Part shown: positions 515-37,436 of the stretch, piece after piece | Layout: each line of letters begins with the position of its first letter | How positions within the stretch are numbered: position 1 is the first letter of the stretch | From: a virus | Direction: 5' to 3' (one strand) | DNA length: 48,162 bases | IMG/VR virus record: IMGVR_UViG_3300025881_000023 | Coordinates: 1 to 48,162 of that record | The notes under the pieces: generated by a model | What the model was told of the DNA's origin: nothing | The model's input: the letters and a program-made list of their open reading frames with translations, nothing else | The model's database searches: none | Position numbers and translations under genes: made by a program

Positions 515-3500
515 TTATTTATTACTAAGGATGAAATATTTGTTAGCTTCTTCTGGGTCCCCGGTCTTTACAATACCGCTTATTACTGGGAGTATATCTT
601 CTAGTTCCTTAACCCACTTAAGATCTCCCCTCTCGTATTTACCAGACCGTCGTTGATAGAAGACATCCTTTTCTTCTATTGTTGGCCAACCCATATAGTA
701 TCCGGCTAAGTTGTTTGTAGCTGTAATAAGCTGGGATGCATCCTTAACTAGGTTAGCAGCTGCAGTGGGGGACTCTATTATTCTCCCAAATTCATTTACG
801 CTTCTAAATGCTTTGAGTTCTGTTTCAAGTCTATTCATCTGGTAGATTGCCATGTGTGTGTACCAGTTATCATACTCATCATCATCGTCCATCATACCAT
901 TTAGAATCAGTGTTATCATTCCGGTCATTGTAATGTAGAATTGCTCATGCAAAATTCTGCGAATGTTTTGTCTCTGCAATTCATTTTGATTCTTGCTTTT
1001 CCCAACCAGGAGTTTTAGAGAGTCTATTGGGTCATTTTTAAATCCACGTACCGCTGCTGTGATAGCATTATAATATGTAGTGTAGTACCCTTCTGTTATA
1101 TCTCCTAGCTCTACGTCGATGTGGTATCCCCCACTTCTGTGACCCATTCTTTTTCTGTATGCAGGATTCAAGAACTTGCGGAACAGAGCTACTAATGACA
1201 AAGCCCCCTGTCTCTCTATAAGAGTCTTATCAAAGCTCCCCTTCAACTGGTTGGTTCTCTTTACCATCCCGGATACTTTGGCGGCAAACATACCCATCTC
1301 TTTGTTCCCAAAGTTTGCAACATCAGATCTAACTTTTAACTGACCTTTTGAATCCTTTTCTAATATATCCCAAAGATTTGCCTCTTCCCCCTCTTTATTT
1401 TTGATGATGTTCCCATTCTTATCTTTGAACCCTTTTTGTTCTAGAGCAAGGGCCACCATCTTCGTCATAGTTGTTTGCCATTCCGGGATTCTTTGCAAAA
1501 TAAACACGGAGTTTAGGTTAGTGGCTTTTCTTACAGCACTCCCAGTAACATCCTCTGTTCTACCCATTTCCTGGAAGACATCAAACATTTCAGCCATTTG
1601 ATTTAGCTTACTTTGTTTAACAAACTTAGGTGAGATTGCCTCGCTTACACTTGTCCCAAGATCAGACAGAGCGAGGTTAACTATTGTCTGTGCCTTGAAG
1701 TGACTTCCCTTGCTGTAGAACTGTCTTGCCCAGCCTTCAGATCCATTTGATATAGAGTCTATTATCAACTGGTTAGTAGCTTGCAGCCCGTTAAATCCAA
1801 GTCTTGATAGTGCAGTAAGTGACGCGGCTTTACCGTAAAGCTTTGTCTTTGAGAATCCTAAGATTTTATCAGTTTCCTGCTTTCTCATGCTCTCTCCATA
1901 GATTACATTATCTATGAAGTTTTTAAGATGCTCAAAGTCTCGACTATCTTTTCCAAGTCCCTCTTTTTCTATTCCAAATCCTAGTCGCTGTGCAGTCTTA
2001 TCTACTATTGGGATACCTGTAGCAGACAGTTCTTTAACAGTACGATCTCTAATAGAGTCATGCATCACATTAACTACTCCAGCCATTTTAGCTGTGGCTT
2101 CATAGCGGTTAGCCATGTCAACAAATTTGACTAGACTGTTTACTATGTCTCTGGAGATCTTAGACTCCTCTACTGTATTCGTAAAGTATTTGGGGATTAC
2201 TCTTAACTTCTCCCCATTTGCATCGATGAGTTCCCCAAACTCTGTATCGGTTTCATTCTGTGTAAACACATCCCCAATTGCGTTTTGGGCACCCTCCTTA
2301 AACTTCTTTTCTTTGAAAGAGTCTATGGCATCCTTTAGTATAGCAGGAGCCATGTAAGAAAAATTGTCCCAGGAGTTCTGAACCATTGGGCGTCTCCCAA
2401 GTTTAGCTTGGTGCTCTTTATACACCTCCATAAACACGTCGTAGAACTCTCTTGTTGCTGCGGGCATGTTCGTAAACTTAGGGTTAATGTAGCTATCATT
2501 AGGTTGTGTTAGGCTACCTGTAATTACCCATCCCCCTTTTCCTCGTCGGTATACTTTCTTTATCTCAAGGTCCAGCGCATTGTACTGATAAGACAGCTCC
2601 CTTGCTTCAAAGTCCCTACCCTCTTTGTACGCTTTATTTCGTGCGAGTAGTATCTTATCCCGCTTATTAAGCATGTCATCAATTATGTCCTGAGCTCCGT
2701 CTATCGGTCTTCCATTTTTTGAATACCACTCCGCAACTGTTTGGTTGTATAGTCTTCCCTCTTTACTTCTAAAGAAGTCATCAAGTTCTGAGACATCCTC
2801 TGGGTAGCCGTATTCTTCTTTTGCAAGCTCAAACATTGTATTCTGCTTCTCGTTGTAGCTAGCTATATCAAAAGGCTGTACAATACTCAAGATATTAGTC
2901 TTCTCTACCTTCTGTGTTTTCTTGTTTTTACGATACACAGAAACTACCTCTAGCATATCCTTAAACATTTCTGCCGGGTTTCTTTCTGACGCAGTACTTG
3001 CATCTCTAAACTTGTAGAAAGCATCACGCAGTTTAAACTTAGTATCTATGGTGCTTCTGTGGCCTTCAAGTAGGCCTGTTTTGATTGCACTTGAAAACAA
3101 ACTGAGTGTAATATCCGAGCTGTAAACCAAAGGATCTGTGTAAAGTGAGAACCCGGATGCATCCTGGTGTGTTTCTCTCAACTCTTTTATGATACGAGCT
3201 GGCCCAATACGTTTTTCTTTAAGCTGCTTGATATTTAGCTCTATCAGACGTCGTTGTCTATTTTGCTTTGCTTGTCTGCTGTCAAGTAACCCGTAACCAG
3301 ATCGAAGGTTACGTTCCATAGCTATTGCTTCGTATTGTTTATTGTTTCTCTCTAGTCCTCGGAATGGGATGTTAAGATTATTTTCCTCCAACGCCTTTTC
3401 TAGAAACTCTATGTCTGCATCTATTTTTTGATTAACACCTATAGGAGCAAATGACAGAAGCAATCTTGCTTGTATTGGGATAGCTACAGCTAAGTACCTA

Positions 3501-4387
3501 TCATCTAGAGCATCCATTCTTTTTATAGTATCTCGTACGTCTTGCAGTAGGTCATCTTTTAAACCTTCAGTATCCGCTAGAGTATCTAGTTTGTTTTTGA
3601 GAATAGTAAGAGCGGACTTCTTTTTGTCCTTATTGTAGAATGCTTGTATAGTCTGCTGCAGGTCTGAGATGTTTTTAAGTATGTTAGCTTTATCCTCATT
3701 GGGCATTGTTTTATAGCTAACTGCATACTCTTGTTGTATTCTATCGTACAACTTCTCAGCTCTCTGTGCTAGTGCGAAGACATAGTCTATGTATTCAGCA
3801 TAGTCAGATATCTTCTCCTGTCCCTGCTTTATTTTCTTTAGGTTTGCTTTTAACAGCTCCAGCTCTCGTAGCTTCTGCTTAGTCTTCTCCTTCTGCTCTA
3901 AGCGCTCGAGTCTCCCTATCTGAAGCTCCACATTTGTTAAGAGCTTTTCTGTTGTATTATCTACCCTTTCTTGTACATTAAATACCTCGTCTACTAGTGG
4001 GTCTTGCGTCAGATCTTCACCTTCAGCCTCAATGTCTGTGTCTTCAGACATAGTAAACTGCACTGAAGTATTTCTAAACATAACCTCCAATACTTCAGGG
4101 TCTATATCCAGCCTTACGTTCTTCCCTTCTCGAGTCTCAGTAATCAGATTTGTGTATGCCCCAAAAAAGTCTTGGGCTGCTGCGTTGATGTAACCTATTT
4201 CTTTTCTTGCATCCATTACATCATCTCGCAAGTAAAGAGTATCCCCATCTAAGACGGCTATCTTGCCGTCCAGCATCTGCTTTATTTTGTATGGATCTCT
4301 TGCTTCTGCAGCAGTATCCTCTACGTAGAACATAACGTCTGAAAGCAATGGGTTATCTATACCTCCGACTTTAAATCTGCAACTCAT
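515..4387 (-). CDS. 1290-residue internal virion protein, last gene of the late block
   Basis: Mostly helical, charged protein with no catalytic motif that I recognise. A long Lys/Glu/Leu-rich region at about residues 135-240 is a likely coiled coil. A region around 852-880 (GKAASLTALSRLGFNG) resembles a segment I associate with the giant internal proteins of crAss-like and other large phages. A hydrophobic patch at about 1147-1165 (MTGMITLILNGM) is followed by a DDDDEYDNWY acidic run. The gene starts 11 bases after the stop of the giant RNA polymerase gene, so it is very probably co-expressed with it. Inference: it is packaged and injected with the polymerase, or is a separately encoded C-terminal module of the same machine. 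A transcription cofactor role cannot be excluded. Confidence 0.6.
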   Translation of the reverse strand: MSCRFKVGGIDNPLLSDVMFYVEDTAAEARDPYKIKQMLDGKIAVLDGDTLYLRDDVMDARKEIGYINAAAQDFFGAYTNLITETREGKNVRLDIDPEVLEVMFRNTSVQFTMSEDTDIEAEGEDLTQDPLVDEVFNVQERVDNTTEKLLTNVELQIGRLERLEQKEKTKQKLRELELLKANLKKIKQGQEKISDYAEYIDYVFALAQRAEKLYDRIQQEYAVSYKTMPNEDKANILKNISDLQQTIQAFYNKDKKKSALTILKNKLDTLADTEGLKDDLLQDVRDTIKRMDALDDRYLAVAIPIQARLLLSFAPIGVNQKIDADIEFLEKALEENNLNIPFRGLERNNKQYEAIAMERNLRSGYGLLDSRQAKQNRQRRLIELNIKQLKEKRIGPARIIKELRETHQDASGFSLYTDPLVYSSDITLSLFSSAIKTGLLEGHRSTIDTKFKLRDAFYKFRDASTASERNPAEMFKDMLEVVSVYRKNKKTQKVEKTNILSIVQPFDIASYNEKQNTMFELAKEEYGYPEDVSELDDFFRSKEGRLYNQTVAEWYSKNGRPIDGAQDIIDDMLNKRDKILLARNKAYKEGRDFEARELSYQYNALDLEIKKVYRRGKGGWVITGSLTQPNDSYINPKFTNMPAATREFYDVFMEVYKEHQAKLGRRPMVQNSWDNFSYMAPAILKDAIDSFKEKKFKEGAQNAIGDVFTQNETDTEFGELIDANGEKLRVIPKYFTNTVEESKISRDIVNSLVKFVDMANRYEATAKMAGVVNVMHDSIRDRTVKELSATGIPIVDKTAQRLGFGIEKEGLGKDSRDFEHLKNFIDNVIYGESMRKQETDKILGFSKTKLYGKAASLTALSRLGFNGLQATNQLIIDSISNGSEGWARQFYSKGSHFKAQTIVNLALSDLGTSVSEAISPKFVKQSKLNQMAEMFDVFQEMGRTEDVTGSAVRKATNLNSVFILQRIPEWQTTMTKMVALALEQKGFKDKNGNIIKNKEGEEANLWDILEKDSKGQLKVRSDVANFGNKEMGMFAAKVSGMVKRTNQLKGSFDKTLIERQGALSLVALFRKFLNPAYRKRMGHRSGGYHIDVELGDITEGYYTTYYNAITAAVRGFKNDPIDSLKLLVGKSKNQNELQRQNIRRILHEQFYITMTGMITLILNGMMDDDDEYDNWYTHMAIYQMNRLETELKAFRSVNEFGRIIESPTAAANLVKDASQLITATNNLAGYYMGWPTIEEKDVFYQRRSGKYERGDLKWVKELEDILPVISGIVKTGDPEEANKYFILSNK

Positions 4388-4398
4388 TTATTCTTTAT

Positions 4399-7300
4399 TT
4401 AGCAAACATGTGATATATCTGAAGAGCTGTCTGTAGTTCTGATTCTTCTTGTCTCCTCGTTCATAGTCATAGGATCAGACATAGTCTTTGTAATTCCAGC
4501 TCTAGAATGTAAATCTACAACTTTATCTTTTCCTTTACCTTTACCTGCCATCCTTACTTTTCTTTCTCCTTGGCTTTCAGCAAAGAAACTGCTAGTTACA
4601 ATATCCCCATTTCTGTCTCTGAGGTTGAGCTCGATAATCTTATTAGTTATACTCGTGCTCTGTATTAGGTGATACATCTCATCTGTGTTGTTATACTCAT
4701 ACACTGACATCTTATCTACACCCTTACTGTAATTAGCTCTTGTTACATATCGCGCCGGACGACCATCTAGTTCTACTGATGCAGGCAATCCGTACAGTCC
4801 TTCACCGCGTTGCACATACGAACGTGGCATTCGTCCAACAAGTGGTGCAGATGCTACAGTAGCGGCACCGTAGTTCTGCATAAAGCTGAACATGAAATCG
4901 TCAAAGTATCTCTCGTCATTCTTGACATTCTGGAATTCTTCTCGCAAGTACTGCATCAAGGTCTTCCCACTCTCGTCAGCTATCTCCATAAAGAAGTCTA
5001 TTGGGATGGCGTCGTAGTATGTACCATAAGAAGGTGCAAGTCCGGTTGTTACGATTGAGTTGAGTACCAGTCTCTTACCCATATTCTGGATCTTCTTCTG
5101 TTCTTGTGGGTCACTAGTGTATTTCTCCGGTCTGTACAATAGATCTCCAAACGACTGACGTTGGGTTTCTCTTGCTCTGAGTGACATTTTCTCCGTGTTC
5201 TCTATGCTTATTCCAAACACTCTTGTAGTAGGATCATTGTATTTAGGTCCCTCTTTAATAGACGCAATCATAGAGTTACTTCTCAATGCTGGAATCTCCT
5301 CGATCAGGTCTTTCACTTGTTTGTACAAGTTGTTTTTAGGATCAAGAAGCATCGACTTTACTACAGACTTCTGCATCAATGATCCTATCGGAGAACCCTC
5401 CTTAGTAAAGATGTGGTAGAACAATGCTCTGTCTACAAATCTGTGCTCTGCAGCAGTCATAGTTTGCTTTCCAGCAACATCCTTCAGCAACTGTTTAAAC
5501 TCTCTAACCCCCTTCGTCCCGCTCATAAACAGCTCCGATGATATCTGCATCGACTCATCTATGATGTTGAAGAAGGCTCTACTAATTCTATATGCATCCC
5601 CCTTAAGTATCTTCTCCACCTCTGAGTAACCAACGATGTTTCTGTTACCGCTTCTCTTGTAGTTATCTAGCACATCCAGGTATGCCTCAATCTCAGCAAG
5701 GTCCCCCATCCCATCCAGGTTATCTGCAGCAATGACTCTGTAGAAGTCTGACAAGCTGTTACCTGCTACAAGTGCATGCGCAAATGCGTACAATGCTTCT
5801 TTTGCAACCGGATCTTTTCTATTCCCCTCTTTAGAAACTCTTTCAAGTTCCTCAGTATTTAAAGCTGGGGGCAGTATGCTGCTATCAAAGCTTGCAATTT
5901 TGCTGTAGGTCTTTCTATTAATTCCTAAATCTTGGAATACTCTCTGGTTACTCTTGTTTCTGTTGTCTCTTTTACTTTCAACAAACTCCCTAACAAGGGG
6001 GGTCGTCATTAATGCCACTACATCTCGGTCCCCAAATCCTATACTCTTAAGATACACTGTAGCGTTGAGAGTAATATCATTATCGTTAAGCGTACTGTGG
6101 ATTAATTTACTACCAGCATCTAGCGCTGCAGAAAGTCTCTCTACGATTCCAGCAATATTTCTTTCGTTTGTCATCTCTGACCTAGTAGATATCAGACCAA
6201 GTGCTGTGTCATTTAGTATGAATTTCTTAGATGCATTTACTGCTATACCGTTCTGTATGTACTCTTCATTCTCGAACTGAGATGCAACATTAGCAATGCT
6301 CATACCTGCAATAGCATTAGCATACCCACCCACAAGTGTTGCAGCACTTTTATAGTTAGACTCCATCTTGATTTCTACAAGTGGGTCATCAAAATCTCTG
6401 ACTTCTTCTTTTGCAATTTCAGGATTGTCGGCTAGATCGTTTAGTGTATCCTGATTAAGTGGGGCAAACAGGTAGGGTGCTGTTTCCTTATTCATTAATA
6501 TAGAATAGGAGATATTAAACAGCTCATTCTTTAACCTATCCAGTCTATTCTTGGGATCCTTGTTCTCAAACAGGTTAAATAGTTTATCAATATCGAAGTC
6601 AGATCCTGTTTGAATTGTAATACCACCTGCCACCATAACTGTCTTTGAGTATCCTCGAGGAAGGATACCAGCAACTTGAGATGGGACTGCTGAAGAGTAG
6701 TCCTGGTTTGGGATACGGTACATTATAATGCGATCCCCAACCTCTATACCATGCATTTCTGCCAGGTCTTCAGATATCATTATCTCTGCCGCCACTGTAT
6801 TCCCTTTTTCATCTATATGTATATGTCTAAGCTCTCTTATCTCATCCCCAATCTTCCACTTACCTCCAGAGTTTGCTTGTACAAGGTCACGTCCTGGTAG
6901 CTTAACCTGGTACACATTGGATCTAAACAGAGAGAAGATTTGGTTCTGTAACTGCCGCTGATAAACAGGCATATATGTTGGGACATTAAAGTCCACGGTG
7001 TTATTTACCATGTCCTCTACGATCCTAAGTTGTTTATCTAAGTTAGAGTCAAGCTTGTTATTCTTCATTGCGTTATCCATAATAACGCTTTTCACTCTCT
7101 GCAGGAATTTAAGTCGTGCTTCTTTGTTACCTGGATTCTTTTTCAACTCGTCCCACCCAAGCTCTTTGAAAAGCTTTTTTGCTTGCGCGTCAAGGATTTC
7201 TTCATGCAAGGTTTGATATCTATCACTAACCTCTTTTCCTGACATTGGGGACTTTGCTCCTTTTACATCATACTCTCCATCTGCCTTAACCATAGTTGGG

Positions 7301-10300
7301 AGCACCTTACGAATCTGACGATTCATCTTAGCTGTCTCAGCTCTTTTGTCACTTATAGTTTGTGGTATGTACAACCCATCTGTGCTCATCTCTGTTCCTT
7401 CAAGTCCTTCAAACATGGTCGCTCCAAGTTCTTGATTTACAGCAAACTCCTGACCCTTCGCACCCTTCTTTGCAGACTCCGTATTTATTATGTGTATGTT
7501 GTCCCCCGCTTTGTTCATTCTAAGATACATAGCCGCCAGAACTGTGTTCATTTCTGCTAGTGGTCGCGTAACAACCAAGAGTGAGTTCTTCTGCATATCA
7601 GATATAGACGCCCCATTCTCCATAACCTGATTGTTTACAAATGGCTTTATAGGCTCTATGTATTTATCCCCTTTCCATTCTCCTTTTTTGTTCAGATATT
7701 CATCAAACCACACGTCATCTTCTGATGTCCACTGTCCTTTACCCTGCTTATACATTTTGTAGAAGAGATCTGAAGCAAATGCTTGGGCATCTGTATGGTC
7801 ACCAAAATCGTTTCTGTACTGTTTTGCTATGCTTTCTGCTTTTTTAAGTGCCTCCTCTTTAGACATCTTCATAGTCTTTTCATAGAAAGGAGCTAGTGAA
7901 AGGTCTCGAAGATTGTCGGCTGCCTCGTTATGAAAGGGCTCTTGGTTTTGCATTTTCCCTATAGAGGCCTCCACAATTGTTGGGGCCATTCCGTAATCTG
8001 GATCAGCTTCAAACTCTCCCTTCTGCATAAGCTTATCTCCGGGAGTTTGTATAAGACCCATTCTTTTGTAGAACTTGGTTAAGTTCTCAAATTGTACAAC
8101 ACCACCACGTAACATCTCTGCCATCTCAATGCGAGCTAGCATGTCTGTCATCATATAGTTATTGAGGAATCTATTTACTCCCCCGTATTTCTGAACTGAC
8201 GAGTCAAGCTTGGACTTCTCCAAGAACTCTGGCTTGCCTTCAACCAATCGTATGATGTTGTATCGCAAGAGCTCGTTGCGGAGGTTCTCTCTATTTCGTT
8301 TGAATACAGTGTTTACGTATTCTTTTACCTGTCTGTCAAGCTCCTTATTGAAGTCCTGATATTCTTTACCCTTTGGGTTTTGTAGATAGTCCTTTACAGT
8401 TTCAGACATCAAAAGGCCACTACCTAGTTTAGTATTGACTATGCCCGTTAAGTGAAAGCCGTTGTTGTAGTTTTCAGCTACACGTGGGTTATTGCTAAGT
8501 CGAACCAAGTCACGTATGACAACACTCTTGAGTCTTCCACTAAAGCTTTCTCGTTGCAAGCCTGCTGCTTCTACAGCTGCGAAGTTCTTCTCTTCTATCT
8601 TAGGGAACTTAACAAAGTCCAATCTGCCTCTAGTCTCCTGAGTTGAAACAGGTATCCATCCATACTTTATAGCTGACCCTTGGTTTACAAACATATTGAG
8701 TTTGAGTATCAGAGAGTCTCGTTCGGACATTTTCTTGTACTCTATGTTAGCGTCATCTGATGCCTCATTGTTGATAGTATCAAGTGCCCAGCTGGATATT
8801 TCAAATTCTGGATTTGCAATCAAGGTCATGAGCATTGCTTTGTGCTCAGTGTTCATTGCTGTGAAAGACTCATCTCCTTGCAAGAATGCATACTTATTTG
8901 AAGCTGCATTTTGTTTGAGATCTTCTATCAAATCAGTGAATGGTGTGGGGAGGTTGTATGGATAGATAGTCTTTCCCTTCCCGTTTACATATGCTATTGC
9001 AACTGGGACACTGTATTCTGCAGCAATATTAGCAAGCTCCTTTACTGTAGATCCCTCTGATACAAAGAAGTTTCTAACCTTGCCCTTCTTAAGCATCACG
9101 TCTTTTACTCTTCCGCCCTCTACCTTAAAGTCTACTGCTTGGTTGGCCAAGTAAATTACCTTCTTAAATATCTTGGATATTTCATTGTTGTCTAGAGTAG
9201 TATTCTTTAGCACGTAAGACATGAGGCGATCTGTAGCCTCTTGCTCAGTACTGCCCATACCCAAAGAAAGGTTCCACATTATTTTACCTAGCTGTGTAGC
9301 CTTACCTTCAACTGTGTTCTCTCTATCGTAGTTGAGGAATGCCTCTTTAAGCAGGTCTATTCTATTTTGACCCTCAGTTATGTTGTTGTTAAAGGCAATA
9401 CCCCCATCTTCAGTCTCTGTAAATACTGCTCCGGGTCTTGGGACTGAAAGCGTTTGAAGTCCGTCGTTCTTCCAAGTGTCTTGCCAGTTAATAACTGCAC
9501 TCTTTCTGTCAGAGTTGATAGTCTGTACAGACATCTCTACTCCACCGTCAGTAGTCTCGATCTGATTTTCTTGTACAATTCTAAGCTCTGAGTATGTCTT
9601 AGTTAAGAAGCGGGTAAGTGCCGCAACCTCTTGTGCTGTAGGAGTCCCATTAAGATAGTCCTTAAGTGGGCCAAGTATCAGACTTTTTCTATCTGTCTTT
9701 TGTGCTTCTATCTCTTCTATACGAGCAGCCTCTTGTATTCTACCCAGTATCTCTGAATACCCTTTAGCGCCCGCAGTAACTGCAATTGTTTTTCTAAGGG
9801 TAGCCTCAACGTCTATATAAGTAGGTATCCCGAATACGTTAGGCGTTGTGTCCACGATTCTAGACAGCAGGTTTCTCACTTCTTTAGATGCCACTTTGAG
9901 TGGGTCTTGTTCAAAGTGAGAAATGTCATAGATCTTGTCGAAGTTCACCTCCTCCTGTTCAGGAGACCCTTCTTCCTCTTGCTCCAGTGCAGTACGTGTA
10001 GCAACTCTAGTCTGAATAGTGAACCCATACTTAAGAAGATCTGCAGCTGCTGCATCTCTCCACCCGTATTGTTCAATGTTACCTAGCTCATCTGTAACGT
10101 CAAACCAGTTTTTCCATACATTGTAGAAAATAATCGCTGTGTTTCGCTGGGTCTTCTCCTCTTTATTAAATACAGTAGTAGGAAGTTCACCTTCTATAAA
10201 TGCCTGCAGAGGGGGTTTTCGTTGAAGCTTGTATTTCTTTACAGCGTTCTTTATTTCTTCTGAGCTCTTTGCATTTTTAATTGCCTCCATTGCCTCATCA

Positions 10301-13300
10301 CTCATGTACCCATCAGTTTCTGTTGAGAAAGAGTGCTGCAAGAACCAATCTGCAATAATTCCCTTGTCTTGTTCTGTTGTTCCAAGGAGTGCAGTTGCAA
10401 GAACCTTGTTGTTTTTTCCTGTGCCCTCTAGTTGAGACATTCCCTGCAACATCTGATTGCTTTCGTTATATGTATCAACGAACTGCATAGAGATAACGTC
10501 AAGGACTTGTTGTTGCATCTCATAGTCATTCCCCAAGTCACTCACCAATCTGTATACCTCGCCCTTGGTTGCAAACTTCTCAGCGCTTCTTTCATATTTA
10601 TTTGGAACCTTGTTTGATTCGATCAAAGAATAGAACTGCTCTACGCCTACAGGATTTACAAACAGGGCCTTAATGAAGTTCCACAAATCGTTGAAGAACT
10701 TGCGGATCTTCCCAGGAAGAGTCTTCCCGGTCTCTTGTGCAGTAAATACGTAATTACGGAACTCCTCTGCCATTGCCTCTTCAAGCTCAAGCTCTGTAGC
10801 ATTGGGGAGATTAAACCGCTTTCTAGCTTCTTTGTACAATCCCTCTCTTTGCTTCTCGCTTAGAGATGTGCGGAATACATAGTGGAATGCTTCGTGGTAT
10901 TCAGTCCCAACTTCTGCGTTGTTCCACAGATACACAGCAGCATTCTTCATATAGCCGTGTGCAACTTTACTACCTACCTGCTTTGCAATCTCATAAAACT
11001 CTACTGGGATGTTTCGCTGCTTCAACCAAGCAATAGCTTGAGCTTTATTCAAGCGCTTACCCTTATTAGCAGACAGTCTAAATGCGTCATCCTCTAAGTC
11101 CATGCCCTTCAGCTTCTCTTCCTCTGGATCCGTTTTCGTTTCTGTCTCCGTTCCTGTTCCCGTTTCCTGTTGGCCTTTTTTCTTGCGTCTTTCAGCAAGT
11201 ATAGCGAGAAGCCTCTTCCGGGTTGCTTTTTCTGCTTCTGCTATATCATCATCAGTAACTTGAGTGGGATCGTATTCTTGTTCTCCTACTTCTTGTTCTC
11301 GAGCTTTTGCTGCTTCATCAAACAATGCTTGTGCATCATTAGTTTCTGCTGTTGATATAGGACGAGATACTTTTATGTTGTTTGCCTTTGGTTTTTTGTT
11401 CCCAATCTTAAGCTGGGACAAGTCAAACTCAAGACCAATACCATTGTACATAGAGCCATTATGCAGAACAACGTCAGTCATAATAACACCACGGTGCCCA
11501 AAGACCGTTTGTAGTGGGAGCGGGTCTTCTCTTGTCTCTTCTACAAGAGTATTATAGTATGATGGGTCAGCATTAAGTCTGTTAATATCTACCTGCTTTC
11601 TCTTATTCTTTAAGGTTCTTTTTACAGCATCGGGCAACGACATTATAAAAGCAAGAGCTTCTTCTTTGCTCATGTCCTCTTTTATAATCTGGAAACCTGC
11701 TCCTTTTGTATTTATAAAGCCATCCTCATTCTCAACAAGTTTCTGTATAAGGTTACCAAGTATTCCAGCTTCTGTTGTTCCTTTCTTACCGTTGAGTATT
11801 GCTTTAGCCGTAGCTTCTGCTGTACTTGGGTCTGCAAGATTTGTAAGTGTTCGGTTGTCTAATGCAACTACAAACATCCCATTCTCTAAGTCAGCTCTTG
11901 CCATCTCAGATTTTACTGAGCGTGTAGGAACTGCGAATCTTATCACTCTCTTGTCCGCATTCCGCATGTAGTCTTTTTCTACTTGCAGATATGTAACAGA
12001 TACTTCCCCAACTTCTGCTGGGCTTAGTGTATTCAAACCAACCTCATCGACCAGTTTCTGGTACGATTCCGGAGAAGAGTCAAGTAACAGATTAAATGCT
12101 TCTTCTTGCTCTGCTTCAGTAAGTCTTGCCGTCTGTAGTAAGCTATACTTCCACTTTCCGTTTGAGTCTTTGTGCAGTGCAACTACCTGACCGTATCTTA
12201 CTTTATCACTAGTCACCTCGTTAGACAGCTCTGCAATAGCATCAAGGTCTTCTTGCGTGAGACCTTGTGTATTAGCTACGGTCAAACCTTTTTTGCTCAG
12301 GTTCTTTGCGTAGGTAACAACACCAAGAGGAGTGTTCCCAAACACCTCATCTACTCTGGATAGGAACGTGCCTGTAGTACCGTCTTGCAGTTCTACAACA
12401 GCATTGTTTCTGTTATTAAGATACTTCTTAGCAACTGCTACAGTAACTTGTTGTCCCTGTGCGCCCTTCAGATATTCTTGGTAGGCAGCACGACGCATAG
12501 CACTGTCATTAGCAGTAAGCACACCGAGTACTTCTCCGGATGGGAGCTTTACATATATAGGTATATGTGCAGCGGCATTTCTATATTGAGTCTTACCTTT
12601 GTTACCAAGCCACCAATCATCCTCTATAACCTCCAGTACAAGCGTCGTTCCTGCTACTACTTTATCACTATCAAGCAAGCTACGATCAGTAATAATAGGC
12701 TCCCCATTTACTGTTCTTTCTGAGTCCAGTCCACTATCCATGGGTACTCCGTCAGAAGAAACAACTACTCTTCCTTGTGCATCTTTAACTACCTCATTGT
12801 TCAGGCTTTCACTGTGTGTTGTAAACAATGCATCTTTCTTTGTTGATGCGGTGCCCTGATCTGCGACTTTCTCAGGGGCTGCTTTCTTAGGGGCGGCAAC
12901 AGATTTAGATGAAGGGAAATTAGCATCATCGTAATCCTTCAAAGCCTTTCTTGCGGCTTTTAGCTTAGGAGATATTTCATTAAAATTATCTGTAGTTATT
13001 TCATCCTCCAAAGCATATACTTCAGCAACTAAGGCATCCCTTGCAGCCGTTGTTCCTGTTCCTCTAATTACGTCGTAGGTAGGTCGGCTGACTGTCTTCC
13101 CGTCTACCACCCGCCTTGGTTTGACTACAGCCTTTATAATTATTTTCCCTTTAGGAACAGCATCGCTAGTTTCTTCGGTGCGGATGTCAAAAGGCGCTCC
13201 AATTCGCTCATCTCGCTCATCGCTATTTAGTTCATCACCTATATCATCAAATACAAATCCCTCAGCTTCTAGCTCAGCTTTACTCGCTTCGTACCAAGCC

Positions 13301-16300
13301 GCATCCTCTTCACTTGCAATACCCTTGGAGTTAGAGACGCTATTAAGGTACCTAAGAAGGGCTTTAGCTTTTTCTTCAAGACTTGTAGCGGCAGCAAAAT
13401 CCTTTTTACTCCTGTCAATCCTCCTTTGCAATCCTTTTTGTTCCTTCTCCGTCGGCTGTTGTCCAGGTGCAGATTGCTCTCCTGTTTTGCGGTTTTCAGC
13501 CGCAAGTCGTGCTCCCTCTTGTTTTCGTCTCTTTATTATTTCTGCTGCCTCATCAGCTTTTCTCTTCTGCTCAACAGTAGTATCTCTTATTGGGGCCTCT
13601 TGAGATCTGTCCTTAAGATATTGTTCTCTGTACGAGTCTAGCAGTGGGCTTAGTCCTTCAAGATTTTCAACTGCGGGTCTGGACATAGTGTCCCATTTCT
13701 GTTGAGCATCTGATCTGGTTTTTGTTCTTGCAGCTATTTCGTCGTTGGCTCTTTTTCTAGCTTCTTCTGAGATGCTCCCTTGTTGCAGAATTCTATCCGC
13801 TTTTGCTTTTAGTTGTTCAGGTGTTACAGTATCTGCAATAATTTGATCAACAAGTGCATCTCTCTTTGTTTGTGCTTCCCGCTCCAATGCAATCTTTGTT
13901 CCAGATATTGCAAGGTCTCGCAGCTCCGGGCTTCTGTTGAGGTTATTGTATGCAGTGACTGCATTACCCCTTTGACTAATAAGCTCCCTAAGCTCTACCA
14001 ATTCTTTTCTGACAGTCTCGAACTCTGTGTGTTCTTGATTATTCGCTAGAATGGTGTTTAGATTCTTTTCTAGATTTTGCTGTACATCTAAACTGAATTT
14101 GCCTTCTTCTAGAGCCACCTCCCCAAATCTGTTTCTTACATAGTTGCGTATACGATCACGCATATTAACAGACTTAGTACGTGTACCCTCTTCATAGTCT
14201 GCCTCTTTTCCTTTCTTGTATGTCTGTGTAACAAGCACATCTGTCAAGAGGCCTGGGAACATCTCCTCAATTTTATCTACTTTCTCTGAGATTGCCCCAT
14301 CAATAAACTTTAGCGACCCTAGCTCTAGCTTTAAATAGTTTTTATAAATAGCTTCATCTTGAAGATTATTTTTCTCTAGCTCCTTCTCTTCTTTTGACAT
14401 GAACAGCTTACCTGCTCCAACAGTTGGGGAGCTTGTGTAGAGTTCGTCTATCATTTCTGCAGACTTCTCTATCTCTTTGGATCTAGATACAATATCATCT
14501 ACCAGTTTATTCTGGTCTATAACTGTCTCTGGGCTGATTCCATAAAGCTCTTTGAACTCATTCTCCGGGAGACTTTTTGAGTCTTCCAGCATCTCTCTGA
14601 ACAAGTCTAAGCTTCCTTTATTATAATGCTGCAGTATTTGTTCTGCCTGCAGTCTTCTTTGATAGTATTCAAATTGCTCCCTGTCTCCTGCTTGCTCTGC
14701 TTCATTCATTCTCTGCAAGAAAAAGGACTGCTTGTTTACAGACTCTGCTCCTCTTGCTGCTCGGAACATACCTTCGTTGTTAAGCAAAGTTGCCTGCTCA
14801 TCTCTTTGTTTTCTGCTTGCCTTTGATTCCTTGTAGCCTTGTATTCCCCCACCCAGAATACCAACAATAGATCCAATGACAAATTGTTCTCGCGCTTCTG
14901 GGTTACTAAATGTCTCAAGCATTTTACTTGCAACCTCAGGAGATGACTCTGCTGCAATTCGGAGCTTATTTGTGTCAATAAGACTTTCTACTATATCCCC
15001 CAATCCGGAGTCATGCATCTTTGCCATCTCGTACTCAATCATCCCCTCAGTAATTGCATACTGTGCAGCTTCTTCTGATCCTTCAGCCGCCATTGTTTTT
15101 AAGAAGGGGGCTGAAAATCTTGCTGCTTGTGCAGTTTGTCGAATACCATAACCTGGAAGTCCACTGAGTTTGTCTACAACACGCAGTGATGGTTTTGCAG
15201 CTCTCTCTGCTGCTGTTGCAGCTCTTAGCCATCTAGATGTTCCTGCTGCTTTTCCAAACTGTTTGAACAGACCCCTAAACATTATAGAGTTACTCAAGCT
15301 CAGTACTCCCACGTTTGAATAAAAAGCAGCACCCTCTGCTTCTAATGCTTGTAACTTAAGCTGTTGCACTTCTTGTGCAGAAAGCTGTGCAGGTAAACCC
15401 ATTGCAGTCTTCTTTCTCAGAGCTTCTGCATATAGCTTTTCATACACTTGTTTACCTGTTTCCTTTCCTTCAATAGATGCTTCCCCTACTGCAGATAAGA
15501 AAGCTGCTTCGGTCTTAGCAGCACCGTTGTATATCTTACTTGCTACGTTTTTAGTAGTTCTGTATGTACCAAGAGCCTTAGACAAAGACTGCCCACTCTT
15601 TATAGTTTTAGCAGTTCTCCACGTTGCAAGTCCCTTGCTTATATTCCCAAGCTGACCAACACGTCCAATAACTCCTGTACCCGCTGTAACATATATTGAT
15701 GCAGCTGTCCCAACTAAGAATCCTATACCATCAAATATCTTGTCAGTAAGGAAGTTCCATGTAAATGAGTTGTTTTCAGAGAATGGGTTAAAGTTTCCTA
15801 TGTTATCCAGCTCTGTCTTTGTGTAATAGTGTGGATTGTTTTTACGAGAGTTCTCCCGCCACTCCTCAGTATTAACAAGATTTGTCCAATCCTGAGCTGT
15901 CCCAACTAGAGATCCTCTGCTTTTAGGATTCAAATTACTTCCAGCGGCAAAGTCAAGAGCGCCCGCCATACCAAGCAATCCGTTTACAAAAGCGCTAGCT
16001 CCAGTAACGGTTCCTTTTTTGGCCCCGATTAACAATTTTTCTCCTGCGCTTTGATTGAGGGCTCTTATAGTAGAGTAATCCTTGTAGCTAGGTCCCCCAG
16101 AAAGTGTTACTCCTCTGTCTGCATATGAAGAGAAGTCCCCAGTTGTTGCAGCAAATCCAGGAGCTACTGATACTTGAGGTCGTTGGCGGTTAACTTTTGC
16201 TTGAAATGCACCCAGCTCTTCTGCAGTAGTAAACGGGAGCCCTGTAATAGGGTTTAAAGTGTTTTGTTGCGGAAGACCTGTAATGGGATTTATAGTACCC

Positions 16301-16311
16301 TTATTACTCAT
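4399..16311 (-). CDS. Giant virion RNA polymerase polyprotein with zincin-type protease domain (3970 residues)
   Basis: Probable DNA-dependent RNA polymerase carried in the virion to transcribe early genes after injection. Seen in the sequence: DFDID at residues 3238-3242, preceded by a double-psi-barrel-like stretch (VGDRIIMYRIPNQDYSS) and GGITIQTGS. This is the catalytic signature of crAss-like phage vRNAPs (phi14:2 gp66, related to YonO and eukaryotic-type RdRPs). HEAFH at 1806-1810 with acidic residues at about 1845-1850 (EEAMAEEF) fits a zincin metallopeptidase; such a domain is known in crAss-like giant proteins. The N-terminus repeats NPITGLP twice. Hydrophobic Gly/Ala/Val segments lie near residues 190-217 and 478-495. 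A charged low-complexity linker falls at roughly 850-970. The start overlaps the upstream stop as ATGA. At 11.9 kb it is a quarter of the window. phi14:2 gp66 is about 2,180 residues, so this protein has large extra regions. Confidence 0.92.
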   Translation of the reverse strand: MSNKGTINPITGLPQQNTLNPITGLPFTTAEELGAFQAKVNRQRPQVSVAPGFAATTGDFSSYADRGVTLSGGPSYKDYSTIRALNQSAGEKLLIGAKKGTVTGASAFVNGLLGMAGALDFAAGSNLNPKSRGSLVGTAQDWTNLVNTEEWRENSRKNNPHYYTKTELDNIGNFNPFSENNSFTWNFLTDKIFDGIGFLVGTAASIYVTAGTGVIGRVGQLGNISKGLATWRTAKTIKSGQSLSKALGTYRTTKNVASKIYNGAAKTEAAFLSAVGEASIEGKETGKQVYEKLYAEALRKKTAMGLPAQLSAQEVQQLKLQALEAEGAAFYSNVGVLSLSNSIMFRGLFKQFGKAAGTSRWLRAATAAERAAKPSLRVVDKLSGLPGYGIRQTAQAARFSAPFLKTMAAEGSEEAAQYAITEGMIEYEMAKMHDSGLGDIVESLIDTNKLRIAAESSPEVASKMLETFSNPEAREQFVIGSIVGILGGGIQGYKESKASRKQRDEQATLLNNEGMFRAARGAESVNKQSFFLQRMNEAEQAGDREQFEYYQRRLQAEQILQHYNKGSLDLFREMLEDSKSLPENEFKELYGISPETVIDQNKLVDDIVSRSKEIEKSAEMIDELYTSSPTVGAGKLFMSKEEKELEKNNLQDEAIYKNYLKLELGSLKFIDGAISEKVDKIEEMFPGLLTDVLVTQTYKKGKEADYEEGTRTKSVNMRDRIRNYVRNRFGEVALEEGKFSLDVQQNLEKNLNTILANNQEHTEFETVRKELVELRELISQRGNAVTAYNNLNRSPELRDLAISGTKIALEREAQTKRDALVDQIIADTVTPEQLKAKADRILQQGSISEEARKRANDEIAARTKTRSDAQQKWDTMSRPAVENLEGLSPLLDSYREQYLKDRSQEAPIRDTTVEQKRKADEAAEIIKRRKQEGARLAAENRKTGEQSAPGQQPTEKEQKGLQRRIDRSKKDFAAATSLEEKAKALLRYLNSVSNSKGIASEEDAAWYEASKAELEAEGFVFDDIGDELNSDERDERIGAPFDIRTEETSDAVPKGKIIIKAVVKPRRVVDGKTVSRPTYDVIRGTGTTAARDALVAEVYALEDEITTDNFNEISPKLKAARKALKDYDDANFPSSKSVAAPKKAAPEKVADQGTASTKKDALFTTHSESLNNEVVKDAQGRVVVSSDGVPMDSGLDSERTVNGEPIITDRSLLDSDKVVAGTTLVLEVIEDDWWLGNKGKTQYRNAAAHIPIYVKLPSGEVLGVLTANDSAMRRAAYQEYLKGAQGQQVTVAVAKKYLNNRNNAVVELQDGTTGTFLSRVDEVFGNTPLGVVTYAKNLSKKGLTVANTQGLTQEDLDAIAELSNEVTSDKVRYGQVVALHKDSNGKWKYSLLQTARLTEAEQEEAFNLLLDSSPESYQKLVDEVGLNTLSPAEVGEVSVTYLQVEKDYMRNADKRVIRFAVPTRSVKSEMARADLENGMFVVALDNRTLTNLADPSTAEATAKAILNGKKGTTEAGILGNLIQKLVENEDGFINTKGAGFQIIKEDMSKEEALAFIMSLPDAVKRTLKNKRKQVDINRLNADPSYYNTLVEETREDPLPLQTVFGHRGVIMTDVVLHNGSMYNGIGLEFDLSQLKIGNKKPKANNIKVSRPISTAETNDAQALFDEAAKAREQEVGEQEYDPTQVTDDDIAEAEKATRKRLLAILAERRKKKGQQETGTGTETETKTDPEEEKLKGMDLEDDAFRLSANKGKRLNKAQAIAWLKQRNIPVEFYEIAKQVGSKVAHGYMKNAAVYLWNNAEVGTEYHEAFHYVFRTSLSEKQREGLYKEARKRFNLPNATELELEEAMAEEFRNYVFTAQETGKTLPGKIRKFFNDLWNFIKALFVNPVGVEQFYSLIESNKVPNKYERSAEKFATKGEVYRLVSDLGNDYEMQQQVLDVISMQFVDTYNESNQMLQGMSQLEGTGKNNKVLATALLGTTEQDKGIIADWFLQHSFSTETDGYMSDEAMEAIKNAKSSEEIKNAVKKYKLQRKPPLQAFIEGELPTTVFNKEEKTQRNTAIIFYNVWKNWFDVTDELGNIEQYGWRDAAAADLLKYGFTIQTRVATRTALEQEEEGSPEQEEVNFDKIYDISHFEQDPLKVASKEVRNLLSRIVDTTPNVFGIPTYIDVEATLRKTIAVTAGAKGYSEILGRIQEAARIEEIEAQKTDRKSLILGPLKDYLNGTPTAQEVAALTRFLTKTYSELRIVQENQIETTDGGVEMSVQTINSDRKSAVINWQDTWKNDGLQTLSVPRPGAVFTETEDGGIAFNNNITEGQNRIDLLKEAFLNYDRENTVEGKATQLGKIMWNLSLGMGSTEQEATDRLMSYVLKNTTLDNNEISKIFKKVIYLANQAVDFKVEGGRVKDVMLKKGKVRNFFVSEGSTVKELANIAAEYSVPVAIAYVNGKGKTIYPYNLPTPFTDLIEDLKQNAASNKYAFLQGDESFTAMNTEHKAMLMTLIANPEFEISSWALDTINNEASDDANIEYKKMSERDSLILKLNMFVNQGSAIKYGWIPVSTQETRGRLDFVKFPKIEEKNFAAVEAAGLQRESFSGRLKSVVIRDLVRLSNNPRVAENYNNGFHLTGIVNTKLGSGLLMSETVKDYLQNPKGKEYQDFNKELDRQVKEYVNTVFKRNRENLRNELLRYNIIRLVEGKPEFLEKSKLDSSVQKYGGVNRFLNNYMMTDMLARIEMAEMLRGGVVQFENLTKFYKRMGLIQTPGDKLMQKGEFEADPDYGMAPTIVEASIGKMQNQEPFHNEAADNLRDLSLAPFYEKTMKMSKEEALKKAESIAKQYRNDFGDHTDAQAFASDLFYKMYKQGKGQWTSEDDVWFDEYLNKKGEWKGDKYIEPIKPFVNNQVMENGASISDMQKNSLLVVTRPLAEMNTVLAAMYLRMNKAGDNIHIINTESAKKGAKGQEFAVNQELGATMFEGLEGTEMSTDGLYIPQTISDKRAETAKMNRQIRKVLPTMVKADGEYDVKGAKSPMSGKEVSDRYQTLHEEILDAQAKKLFKELGWDELKKNPGNKEARLKFLQRVKSVIMDNAMKNNKLDSNLDKQLRIVEDMVNNTVDFNVPTYMPVYQRQLQNQIFSLFRSNVYQVKLPGRDLVQANSGGKWKIGDEIRELRHIHIDEKGNTVAAEIMISEDLAEMHGIEVGDRIIMYRIPNQDYSSAVPSQVAGILPRGYSKTVMVAGGITIQTGSDFDIDKLFNLFENKDPKNRLDRLKNELFNISYSILMNKETAPYLFAPLNQDTLNDLADNPEIAKEEVRDFDDPLVEIKMESNYKSAATLVGGYANAIAGMSIANVASQFENEEYIQNGIAVNASKKFILNDTALGLISTRSEMTNERNIAGIVERLSAALDAGSKLIHSTLNDNDITLNATVYLKSIGFGDRDVVALMTTPLVREFVESKRDNRNKSNQRVFQDLGINRKTYSKIASFDSSILPPALNTEELERVSKEGNRKDPVAKEALYAFAHALVAGNSLSDFYRVIAADNLDGMGDLAEIEAYLDVLDNYKRSGNRNIVGYSEVEKILKGDAYRISRAFFNIIDESMQISSELFMSGTKGVREFKQLLKDVAGKQTMTAAEHRFVDRALFYHIFTKEGSPIGSLMQKSVVKSMLLDPKNNLYKQVKDLIEEIPALRSNSMIASIKEGPKYNDPTTRVFGISIENTEKMSLRARETQRQSFGDLLYRPEKYTSDPQEQKKIQNMGKRLVLNSIVTTGLAPSYGTYYDAIPIDFFMEIADESGKTLMQYLREEFQNVKNDERYFDDFMFSFMQNYGAATVASAPLVGRMPRSYVQRGEGLYGLPASVELDGRPARYVTRANYSKGVDKMSVYEYNNTDEMYHLIQSTSITNKIIELNLRDRNGDIVTSSFFAESQGERKVRMAGKGKGKDKVVDLHSRAGITKTMSDPMTMNEETRRIRTTDSSSDISHVC
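6586..6600 (-). other. Catalytic DFDID motif of the virion RNA polymerase
   Basis: Codons for residues 3238-3242 of the giant protein. In the crAss-like polymerase family the three aspartates of this loop hold the catalytic metal. Flanking residues (TGS before, KLFNLFE after) and the upstream RIPNQDYSS element fit the same double-psi beta-barrel. Confidence 0.9.
10882..10896 (-). other. Zincin HExxH motif (HEAFH) in the giant polyprotein
   Basis: Codons for residues 1806-1810. His1806 and His1810 would bind zinc and Glu1807 would be the catalytic base. EEAMAEEF about 39 residues later could supply the third ligand. Aromatic and hydrophobic residues around it (EYHEAFHYVF) suit an active-site helix. 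Confidence 0.8.
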
Positions 16312-19100
16312 TGTATTGCTGCGTTATAGAATATTATGAAGTCGTCGATAGCTAGTTCTTGTTCCACATCTTCTCCTGCTCCACCACTGGCTCTAACAAT
16401 AACTCTATTTGGTCCTGCTGTAACAGCAAGGCCATCTTCTTCTAATGGCATTTGTGGTGCAAGGAATTCAATTTCTACGCTTCTTCCCCCAATCACATCT
16501 CTGTGCACATACCCATTTTCTTCACCAAATGCTGTTGGGTATTGGAGCATTGTTGCAATTGCTTTACTAGCTATCATTCCGCCCGGACTGTTGTACGTAT
16601 TTGTAATTTTGCTAGGCATTGTTGGATCGTAACCCATAATTAATTCGTCGTATGGAACAAGAATTTGATCACCGGTACTTGTCTCTATAGACATTCCGGC
16701 CTTCATGCTTCCTGTTACTGGGTCAAGATACGAGGTAAAGTCTGCTCTTGCTATTTTTGCCTTAGCATAATCTTCGTCTCCTTCTTTATACAAATCTGCT
16801 ATTGTTACAATTGATCCAGGAACTCCAGCCCTTGCTTGATTAGCTATCTCTGGATTGTTTTCGTTTAGTCTAGTTTGTGTTGACTCTGTAAGAATTACAG
16901 GAACATTTGCAAGGGTGCTCAAGAATCTACCCTTAACCGTATCATTAATCTCTTTAGACAGTTTACCGCTTGAGTCTCCAAGTGCTGCCTCAGACTGGCT
17001 TGTAGTATATGTAACCCGCCCAAGCTTACCTATTCTTTCCTCAGCTTGTTCAGTTGCTTTGTCAAGCTTCTCACGTATGTTAATCTTACCCATAGAGCCA
17101 ACTGCTGTCATTCCAGTGAGTCGGTCTTCTCCTGCAGTCATAGATCTAACAGGTCCAGCTGTTCCTCTGTATCCTACCCCATCAAGCAGCGACCCTTGCG
17201 ACAGATTTTCTATACGTTCTGTTCCTGTTACTGTAACAGTTGAAGCAGTCTGTGCAAGCGCCATAGCTTCTTCAGCATCCAACCCAAACATTTGACTAAA
17301 CAAGGCAGCCCCAACATCAAGACTTCCCCCTAACCCAGATCGAGACAGAGTCTTATCGAACTTCTCTACGTATTCAAGTTCAGTCATAATGTTTGCTGCA
17401 ACCCCAAGCTTATATGCATCAGGGTCAAATGTACCTGACTGTTTAAACTCTACCTCATTAGTTTCTGGGTTATAAGTAGCTCCTATTTGTCCCAATCCTG
17501 GATTGTTGTAAAATGTAGGGAGCTGCTGAGCAGGCATTTCTATGTCATTGCTAATATCTGCAATAACCTCATTGACGAAGGTGTCTTTAAATTCAGCGTA
17601 TGCGTTTTTAATTATCTTCTCTGCCGCATCTCTTTGAGCATCATAGTTAAACAAATCTGCTCTAGCCTGTCTTAGATGGTTTTCAATCTGTGCTTTATTT
17701 TCAGCCAGTTCTGGGTTTGCATATAGCAGTTTAGTAGTTATAATTTCTACTCCGTTCTCTTTGTAGAGATCGTCTTGTATAGATTCAAAAGAGTTAGCAC
17801 CAGGAAGAGAGCCTACCGCAGCTCCAATTCCTTCCCCACCTGTAGCAGACATAGGCCCAGTAGGTATGCCGTATATGTCTGCAAGTTCTGGGTGGAGTTC
17901 CATCAAAGCTGACTCTACTGCCTCCTTGTTGTTGCCTATGTTTCCGATGTGCCCTTCAACCCCGGCTATTGTTGGGGCAGTTTGCCCTTCTCCAATTAAG
18001 TGACTATTAGTAGTTACTACATTATCGCCTGGGAGTACTGGAGTATAAGCACCGGCTCCACCACCTCTGGTTTCGTTAAGTTTGTTTGTGAGAGCTGACT
18101 CGTAGGATACAGAATAGCTTCCTCCGTATGCACTAGGCTGTCTAGTCAATCTAGCTGTAGTCATATAGCGGTTGATATCCTCGTTGTACAGCATAGCTTT
18201 TACAGCACGTCTTTTACCCCCAACAGTTTGTGTAGAGATTATGTGTGCAAGCTGGTCACCATATCTTTGCTCGTCTTTGTCTTCTGAAGACATATATGAT
18301 TGTGCTGCAGTTCTAAGAATAGTATCTAGCTCATTTTCATCAAGGTCTAGAGTGTTGAAGTCTGCAGACTGCGTCATGTAGGCTTGTACATCTGGGCGTT
18401 GCACAATGTTGGCAGTCACTGCATCTACCGCTTCTTGTGGGACGTATTCTACTATCTGATCTTTGTGTGTAATTGCAAATACTAGACCGTCAGCATCTGG
18501 TGCTTGTATTTCTTTTACCTTATATCCTCCTCTTTTTACTTCCGGGATTTGATTAAGCTGCGTAAGTATCTCCTTCTGTATGTCTACGTATTGTGCAATT
18601 GGGGTGCCTCCATAATAGCTTGATTGGACAGCTCTCCCATTACCGTCTAGTTCAATACCGAGGTACGGGGTGTAATCATCAGTACCTTGTTTTAGCCTGC
18701 TTTTTTTAAGCCAGCCTTCATAGTCTGACATTGTAATCTCACCCTTGTCAAGCATCTCTTTTTTTGTTTCTACATCAGCTTGATATCTATTGTAGTTAGT
18801 TTCAAGAGGCGTTGCCGTATTCTTGTATGTTCTTGCCAGACGAGAGACAGGTACAAACATATTTTCGTAGTCCCCTCTAGATGCAAGCCCATCTATCTCA
18901 GCACGAGTACTATTGTACAAGTCATTGTAAATCTTTTGATCATTCTCAAATGAGGCAACAGGCAGCTGTGATAATGCTTGAGCTACCTGATCCTGAGCTT
19001 GAAAAGATGTAAGATATTTAGCTCTTAGCTCTTGTGCTATTTCTGTAGATTGTGGATCTACAAATTGAGATAAGGGTGTATACAGATTACGATATGCCAT
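16308..19100 (-). CDS. 930-residue probable internal (cargo) virion protein
   Basis: No enzyme motif is visible. The N-terminus (YTPLSQFVDPQSTEIAQELR) and the long helical first 150 residues resemble the cargo-type proteins that lie just upstream of the polymerase gene in crAss-like genomes; this is memory of the pattern, not a search. The middle and end look mixed alpha/beta with Gly/Thr-rich loops. It sits between the 1186-residue protein and the polymerase gene with a TAATG junction upstream and an ATGA junction downstream, so all three are likely translated together. Inference: it is packaged in the head or tail and leaves with the DNA. No signal peptide or clear membrane segment was seen. 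Confidence 0.6.
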   Translation of the reverse strand: MAYRNLYTPLSQFVDPQSTEIAQELRAKYLTSFQAQDQVAQALSQLPVASFENDQKIYNDLYNSTRAEIDGLASRGDYENMFVPVSRLARTYKNTATPLETNYNRYQADVETKKEMLDKGEITMSDYEGWLKKSRLKQGTDDYTPYLGIELDGNGRAVQSSYYGGTPIAQYVDIQKEILTQLNQIPEVKRGGYKVKEIQAPDADGLVFAITHKDQIVEYVPQEAVDAVTANIVQRPDVQAYMTQSADFNTLDLDENELDTILRTAAQSYMSSEDKDEQRYGDQLAHIISTQTVGGKRRAVKAMLYNEDINRYMTTARLTRQPSAYGGSYSVSYESALTNKLNETRGGGAGAYTPVLPGDNVVTTNSHLIGEGQTAPTIAGVEGHIGNIGNNKEAVESALMELHPELADIYGIPTGPMSATGGEGIGAAVGSLPGANSFESIQDDLYKENGVEIITTKLLYANPELAENKAQIENHLRQARADLFNYDAQRDAAEKIIKNAYAEFKDTFVNEVIADISNDIEMPAQQLPTFYNNPGLGQIGATYNPETNEVEFKQSGTFDPDAYKLGVAANIMTELEYVEKFDKTLSRSGLGGSLDVGAALFSQMFGLDAEEAMALAQTASTVTVTGTERIENLSQGSLLDGVGYRGTAGPVRSMTAGEDRLTGMTAVGSMGKINIREKLDKATEQAEERIGKLGRVTYTTSQSEAALGDSSGKLSKEINDTVKGRFLSTLANVPVILTESTQTRLNENNPEIANQARAGVPGSIVTIADLYKEGDEDYAKAKIARADFTSYLDPVTGSMKAGMSIETSTGDQILVPYDELIMGYDPTMPSKITNTYNSPGGMIASKAIATMLQYPTAFGEENGYVHRDVIGGRSVEIEFLAPQMPLEEDGLAVTAGPNRVIVRASGGAGEDVEQELAIDDFIIFYNAAIQ

Positions 19101-34536: not shown

Positions 34537-35005
34537 GCTTCTTGAATCTGAGGTATGCTAGTTCGTCTTCTTTTAGTAGCTTAGTTAGCTTTTCTTTGTT
34601 CCCTTTAATTCCACGGGTCGGGGTAAACCTGTATGCAGTCTTGTTTGGGATCTTGCATCTATGCTTCTCCCAATGGTATTTACAGTACCATGGATCGGTG
34701 TAGTATATAAACCACTTCTCTCCATCAGGGTTGTCTTCTGAATACAATGTTTTGCCTTCAGCCAACAACTCCTGTTTGTACTTGTTACTCTCCCACCAAT
34801 CTATTGTAGGCTTGGACGGATTGCGTTCAATCCTACGAATAGAAAGGTTGGAAAGATTGTTTTTCATATTAAATACATCACCCTCAAGGACACCCTCTAT
34901 AACTTCTATGTTGAACTTTTCGCAGATTTCCTTAAACAATTTCTTGCTTATAGGCTCTGCTACAGATTTTGCATAGCTGTTATATATGTCCTTGAACGTG
35001 TGCAT
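34523..35005 (-). CDS. Conserved Bacteroidota-phage protein, 160 residues, function unknown
   Basis: A well-defined soluble protein: FKDIYNSYAKS at the N-terminus, FNIEVIEGVLEGDVFNM at about 31-47, TIDWWESNKYKQELL at about 67-81, then WFIYYTDPWYCKYHW and TPTRGIKGNKEKL near the C-terminus. I recall this motif order from an uncharacterised protein carried by many Bacteroidota phages, including crAss-like ones, within the structural gene block. Its conserved Trp, Tyr and basic residues suggest nucleic-acid or protein binding, but no function is established to my knowledge. The start shares a base with the preceding stop (TAATG). Confidence 0.6.
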   Translation of the reverse strand: MHTFKDIYNSYAKSVAEPISKKLFKEICEKFNIEVIEGVLEGDVFNMKNNLSNLSIRRIERNPSKPTIDWWESNKYKQELLAEGKTLYSEDNPDGEKWFIYYTDPWYCKYHWEKHRCKIPNKTAYRFTPTRGIKGNKEKLTKLLKEDELAYLRFKKHGNI

Positions 35006-37141: not shown

Positions 37142-37436
37142 CGAACTTATTCTTTATTACTAATAGCTCTGAGCACTTTTCATACTCTTCACCTTCTTCA
37201 AAATATGCTATTACGTCTTCTATAATTAATTCTATTGTCTCTGGTTCTTTCGGATCAAATGGGAGGAAGACTATATCACCTGAATCTGTTTTTTCTAGTA
37301 AGAACTCTTCTACCTGAACTTTTCCCGTTAGTATTTTATATGCATTTTCATAGGCCTCTCCGAGGATTTCAATTTCCTCGTTGATGTCTAGAGTGTCATC
37401 AGACTCGTCATTGTTGTATGATAAGTCATCAAACAT
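37128..37436 (-). CDS. Small conserved acidic protein upstream of the ring protein (102 residues)
   Basis: Acidic, helical protein: YENAYKILTGKVQVEEFLL, then VFLPFDPKEPETIEL, and IEDVIAYFEEGEEYEKCSELL. The (A)YxILTGK, LPFDP and YFEEEEYEKC elements match an uncharacterised small protein I recall from crAss-like and other Bacteroidota phages at this same position. I chose ATG 37436 because it overlaps the metallophosphoesterase stop by only 8 bases. The frame is open upstream to 37583, but that would overlap the conserved end of the phosphoesterase by 155 bases. Role unknown; an assembly factor for the ring is an inference. Confidence 0.65.
   Translation of the reverse strand: MFDDLSYNNDESDDTLDINEEIEILGEAYENAYKILTGKVQVEEFLLEKTDSGDIVFLPFDPKEPETIELIIEDVIAYFEEGEEYEKCSELLVIKNKFDDTE

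Follow-up and report, generated by a model that had tools for sequence, protein, structure and literature searches.

The long open reading frame in the 48,162-nt window analysed here (IMG/VR virus record IMGVR_UViG_3300025881_000023, positions 1 to 48,162) raises the question of why a crAss-like phage should encode a virion RNA polymerase (RNAP) of 3,970 residues, which is, as the first-pass annotation had pointed out, nearly twice the length of phi14:2 gp66 (1.82 x 2,180 aa), and of what the rest of so long a chain might be. The answer suggested by our analysis is that the protein is, with high probability, a fusion of a gp67-like module (A) and a gp66-like polymerase module (R) with a zincin-like domain (Z) between them, and that phi14:2 makes both partners separately. 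Its parts are as follows, in order from the N-terminus.

4399..16311, minus strand: the 3,970-aa ORF, a single open frame from the ATG at 16311, comprising A (gp67/gp47-like), the zincin-like domain and R (gp66/gp50-like RNA polymerase)
13447..16311, minus strand: module A1 (residues 1-955), a homologue of the N-terminal region of phi14:2 gp67 and crAss001 gp47
12862..13446, minus strand: charged segment, residues 956-1150, which the closest of the colinear relatives (L014-L016, L020) lack
11242..12861, minus strand: module A2 (residues 1151-1690), whose conservation extends to the C-terminal region of the upstream gene that split lineages encode separately, e.g. L021 (1,874 aa)
10372..11241, minus strand: zincin-like domain, residues ~1691-1980
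10882..10896, minus strand: HEAFH, residues 1806-1810, with putative metal ligands H1806 and H1810 and putative catalytic E1807
10780..10782, minus strand: E1844, putative third metal ligand, in a conserved EExxAExF helix
8392..10371, minus strand: N-terminal region of module R (residues 1981-2640), in colinear order with the same region of gp66-type ORFs, e.g. L021
4882..8454, minus strand: RNA polymerase core, residues 2620-3810, the part modelled, with 6VR4 as best fold match
6709..6720, minus strand: YRIP motif, residues 3198-3201, family-conserved, just N-terminal to the catalytic loop
6586..6600, minus strand: DFDID catalytic loop, residues 3238-3242, a motif in conserved context
4402..4881, minus strand: C-terminal residues 3811-3970

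The polymerase was the part that the first-pass annotation had recognized, from the DFDID loop at residues 3238-3242, and both the position and the assignment hold; the ORF lies on the minus strand, which that annotation had left unstated. Whole-protein searches of Pfam and PHROGs and a single-sequence search of the PDB gave no matches, and only profiles worked; tblastn with the C-terminal half matched crAss-like RNA polymerases in 89 phage records, with E values down to 3e-13, and identity to the named crAss RNAPs is ~20-25%. A profile of residues 2620-3810 made from 65 sequences, with phi14:2 left out (profile A3), matches phi14:2 gp66 (6VR4 chain A) with E = 1.1e-221, its positions 24-1178 falling on 800-2013 of the chain. 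The AlphaFold2 model of the same residues (mean pLDDT 87.3, pTM 0.85) has 6VR4 as its best PDB match (E = 1.5e-35, TM 0.74), followed by the largest subunits of multisubunit RNAPs. Neither result that would have overturned the first-pass assignment, a lack of double-psi barrels around DFDID or a best match outside the polymerases, was obtained. The GSDFDIDK of this protein aligns with its counterparts in seven named phages and 65 homologues, and as the key residues of the GSDFD[IV]D region are invariant across those 65, the motif is not there by chance. That DFDID might instead belong to a non-polymerase double-psi-barrel protein, or to some other protein, could be argued from the lack of any Pfam, PHROG or single-sequence PDB match, but profile and fold searches both give the phi14:2 RNAP by a wide margin and then other RNAPs, which rules this reading out. 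We therefore regard the ORF as a confirmed crAss-like virion RNA polymerase of the gp66/gp50 family, with polymerase activity predicted from sequence and model; a gp66-type fold with two double-psi barrels in one chain is supported at the level of the overall fold match.

The frame itself recurs on other contigs. It is open and colinear in contigs L013 (100% identical), L012 (93%, covering residues ~1328-3970), L014/L015 and L020, such that relatives at 93%, ~55% and ~31% identity on separate contigs all read across the A/R junction; against L012, dN/dS is 0.09-0.19 in every module covered (residues ~1328-3970). The long frame is thus genuine, and an assembly chimera of two genes, whose sole support is the coincidence that 1,797 + 2,180 = 3,977, is ruled out by the open junction in those contigs and by the purifying selection in the modules covered, and has a negligible chance of being correct.

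It had also been proposed that large parts of the chain, some 1,800 residues ahead of the protease motif and about 700 beyond the catalytic loop, have no assigned role. The counts are accurate (1,805 and 728), but the regions do have relatives. Residues 1-1690 match crAss001 gp47, the upstream genes that split relatives encode separately and phi14:2 gp67 (hhalign 99.3%), and on sequence grounds they are homologous to the gp67/gp47 virion proteins, so that virion proteins are known relatives of the 1,800 residues leading up to the protease motif; most of the tail C-terminal to DFDID aligns with gp66 in 6VR4. A1 has hydrophobic stretches rich in Gly and Ala (~101-123 and ~192-214), and the charged segment that follows is probably a lineage-specific linker. 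Phi14:2 gp67 (L008 10651-16050) has, in its C-terminal region, a stretch resembling GNAT acetyltransferases (YRRKGIASSVYQFMSNAG).

Between A and R lies the zincin-like domain, whose HEAFH is the only HExxH in the ORF. The HExxH is joined by a putative acidic third ligand downstream, most homologues keep both HExxH and E1844, and dN/dS against L012 indicates purifying selection on the domain. The model of its core has confident strands followed by two helices bearing HExxH and E1844. When compared with the PDB, this model gave no significant fold match, the best zincin-type hit being ArdC (6SNA, E 1.0), with ArdC and PPEP-3 at E 1-2. One relative, L057, has a ~220-residue insertion within the domain (residues ~2152-2375).

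The polymerase ORF sits in the transcription block of a Crassvirales genome, beside a gp49/gp65-like gene. The features around it are these.

515..4387, minus strand: module C, a separate 1,290-aa ORF homologous to crAss001 gp49 and also found in the phi14:2 gp65 ORF
16308..19100, minus strand: 930-aa ORF immediately upstream of the polymerase ORF, conserved only in close relatives
19100..22660, minus strand: 1,186-aa ORF that includes a hydrophobic, Gly-rich segment; part of the ORF matches a cr273_1 protein from the same block
34523-35005: IHF-type gene

The 930-aa ORF has its stop in an ATGA overlap with the start codon of the polymerase ORF, and by position this ORF of 930 aa would be the counterpart of phi14:2 gp68 and crAss001 gp46; the 1,186-aa ORF is likely a cargo or ejection protein. 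The block also includes tail-tubular genes, and the major capsid protein shares ~30% identity with those of Crassvirales. A DNA repair exonuclease-like gene (phrog_704) lies at 37429-38565, within the structural block. On the RNAP tree (103 rows, a quick method with LG+G4, several long branches) the ORF groups with metagenomic viral contigs and not with any named family; the phage is an unclassified crAss-like phage, probably an environmental one.

One of the closest named systems is phi14:2. There gp67 (1,797 aa), gp66 (2,180 aa) and gp65 (1,421 aa) are consecutive genes, all three annotated as virion proteins detected by MS/MS, and the likeness extends to the RNAP core, the DFDID loop and the colinear order gp67-gp66-gp65; gp67 and gp66 together amount to 3,977 residues against the 3,970 of the single ORF here. 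The difference is that gp67 and gp66 are separate genes, with a core identity of ~20%, and a zincin sought in these two proteins was not found. The relationship rests on homology, colinearity, the gp66-type polymerase fold and the adjoining gp65/gp49-like gene, all of them demonstrated here. The same modules occur in Bacteroides phage crAss001, where gp47 carries HEAFH near its C-terminus, gp50 is the RNAP and gp49 its partner, but there one strand carries A-Z and the other R, each as a gene of its own. In p-crAssphage, gp45 is annotated as an RNAP-associated protein with a zincin, and gp44 as the RNAP catalytic subunit; it is the other joint that is fused, RNAP with module C (4,070 aa). Thermus phage P23-45 gp96 is likewise a giant virion protein (5,002 aa) containing a single-chain two-barrel RNAP, although it is fused to the tail tape measure protein of a long-tailed phage and belongs to another RNAP branch (PMC10770324).

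Nor is the length exceptional, as had been suggested. Three Suoliviridae have zincin and polymerase fused in proteins of 4,464 aa (cr52_1), 4,774 aa (cr50_1) and 5,794 aa (cr273_1), each a single ORF with HEA(F/W)H ~1,490-1,880 residues N-terminal to DFD(I/V)D and a gp49-like gene downstream. They differ from the 3,970-aa ORF in being longer and in forming no close branch with it on the RNAP tree; in cr52_1 and cr273_1 there are also in-frame TAG codons (alternative code). Lengths of up to ~6,000 aa for crAss RNAP genes are given in a review (PMC10136315), and the longest fused member we saw, a 6,741-aa ORF with zincin, RNAP and C module at L055 1091-21313, is open at the end of the locus. The protein is therefore an ordinary member of a known family, and neither its length nor its supposedly unassigned N-terminus is new.

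In a set of ~100 relatives, each joint between modules was found both fused and split. Wherever the modules are co-directional in the loci examined, they run A (gp47/gp67), Z, R, C (gp49/gp65); crAss001-type phages have A-Z on the opposite strand. Z and R share one ORF in 59 of 83 scored rows, C-R fusion is seen in 18 of 93, and eight loci (L042, L044, L046, L048, L049, L051, L053, L056) have A, Z, R and C in one ORF of ~5,500 aa. Each joint switches state at least 5-8 times on the RNAP tree, which indicates that fusion and fission are frequent. Isolate bacterial genome records of Chitinophaga sp. YR573 (L110, a 4.8 Mb record) and Spirosoma oryzae (L120) also contain crAss-type RNAP ORFs with a degenerate zincin, possibly as integrated elements.

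The state of the zincin does not simply follow that of the A-R joint. At three places on the tree (L021-L024/L033/L034; L029; phi14:2/L063/L087), lineages that encode A and R separately lack it, yet it is kept despite the split at the C-terminus of crAss001 gp47 and in L025 and L037-L047, where A is followed by a separate Z-R. In the ~5,500-aa fused clade (L042, L046, L048, L049 and kin) the ligands are lost, YHEAFH having become YWEAFR or YWEAMR with both histidines gone and the glutamate helix mostly kept. We accordingly rejected the idea that zincin presence tracks A-R fusion: crAss001 is split with a zincin, and one clade is fused with a ligand-less one. An apparent lack of zincin in the p-crAss-like group was likewise rejected, as a profile artefact, since p-crAss gp45 and the upstream ORFs of L094, L095, L101, L103, L105 and L115 carry HExxH; the 'no zincin' count across rows includes this group, whose HExxH the profile missed. 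L107, L109 and L113 have single HExxH pentapeptides that are not assignable to a zincin domain.

How might such a chain be delivered? In crAss001, gp47, gp49 and gp50 were detected in virions, where they are probably in the capsid, and have been proposed to precede the DNA through the tail in a partly unfolded form (PMC10172136); phi14:2 gp66 is reported to be a virion RNAP that goes into the host along with the DNA, where it carries out early transcription (PMC7886860, PMC10136315). By analogy with these relatives, whose genes are split, the A-Z-R protein would be packaged inside the capsid, be ejected before the DNA in a partly unfolded state and refold in the cell, where it would transcribe the early genes of the phage with DFDID as its active site. 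The A module may aid packaging or ejection; the zincin may cut between A and R, or its target may be another virion protein.

We see about an even chance that the chain remains intact through packaging and ejection, the zincin acting elsewhere (on another virion protein, the host envelope or a host protein) or being vestigial. The ligand-less zincins of the ~5,500-aa proteins are consistent with this, as is crAss001, which has a zincin without A-R fusion; processing is described neither in the parts of the structural paper concerned (PMC10172136) nor in the review passages (PMC10136315), and partial unfolding is what has been proposed for ejection. A lack of described cleavage is, however, not evidence of absence, and another protease could cut.

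Somewhat doubtful, though to be taken seriously, is a true polyprotein, in which the zincin would cut near the A/R junction during assembly such that mature virions hold gp67-like and gp66-like proteins, as in phi14:2. The zincin does lie at a junction that elsewhere is a gene boundary, its HExxH and E1844 are kept in most homologues of a domain under purifying selection, and at the three places on the tree noted above separate A and R genes go without it. But it is retained where A and R are already split, as in crAss001 gp47, L025 and L037-L047, fully fused proteins exist with YWEAFR in its place (L042, L046, L048, L049 and kin), and no cleavage site has been described. Because fused chains carry ligand-less zincins, self-processing by the zincin cannot be universal, and the first-pass annotation's term 'polyprotein' is to be taken as an inference. 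It is tempting to speculate, although we think it unlikely, that the junction zincin is a processing protease that frees the polymerase from a giant precursor, and that lineages have escaped this dependence either by gene split with zincin loss or by an uncut chain with a dead zincin. If so, crAss-like phages would use both processed and unprocessed forms of a giant injected polymerase.

For the A-Z-R fusion itself, the identity of the 3,970-residue protein is settled: its extra length comes from gene fusion and not from a new polymerase architecture. The ~100 relatives provide natural boundaries for the domains A, zincin, R and C, and the natural experiments among them, in which the modules are fused or split and the zincin is intact, ligand-less or absent, make the choice between processing and whole-chain injection directly testable.
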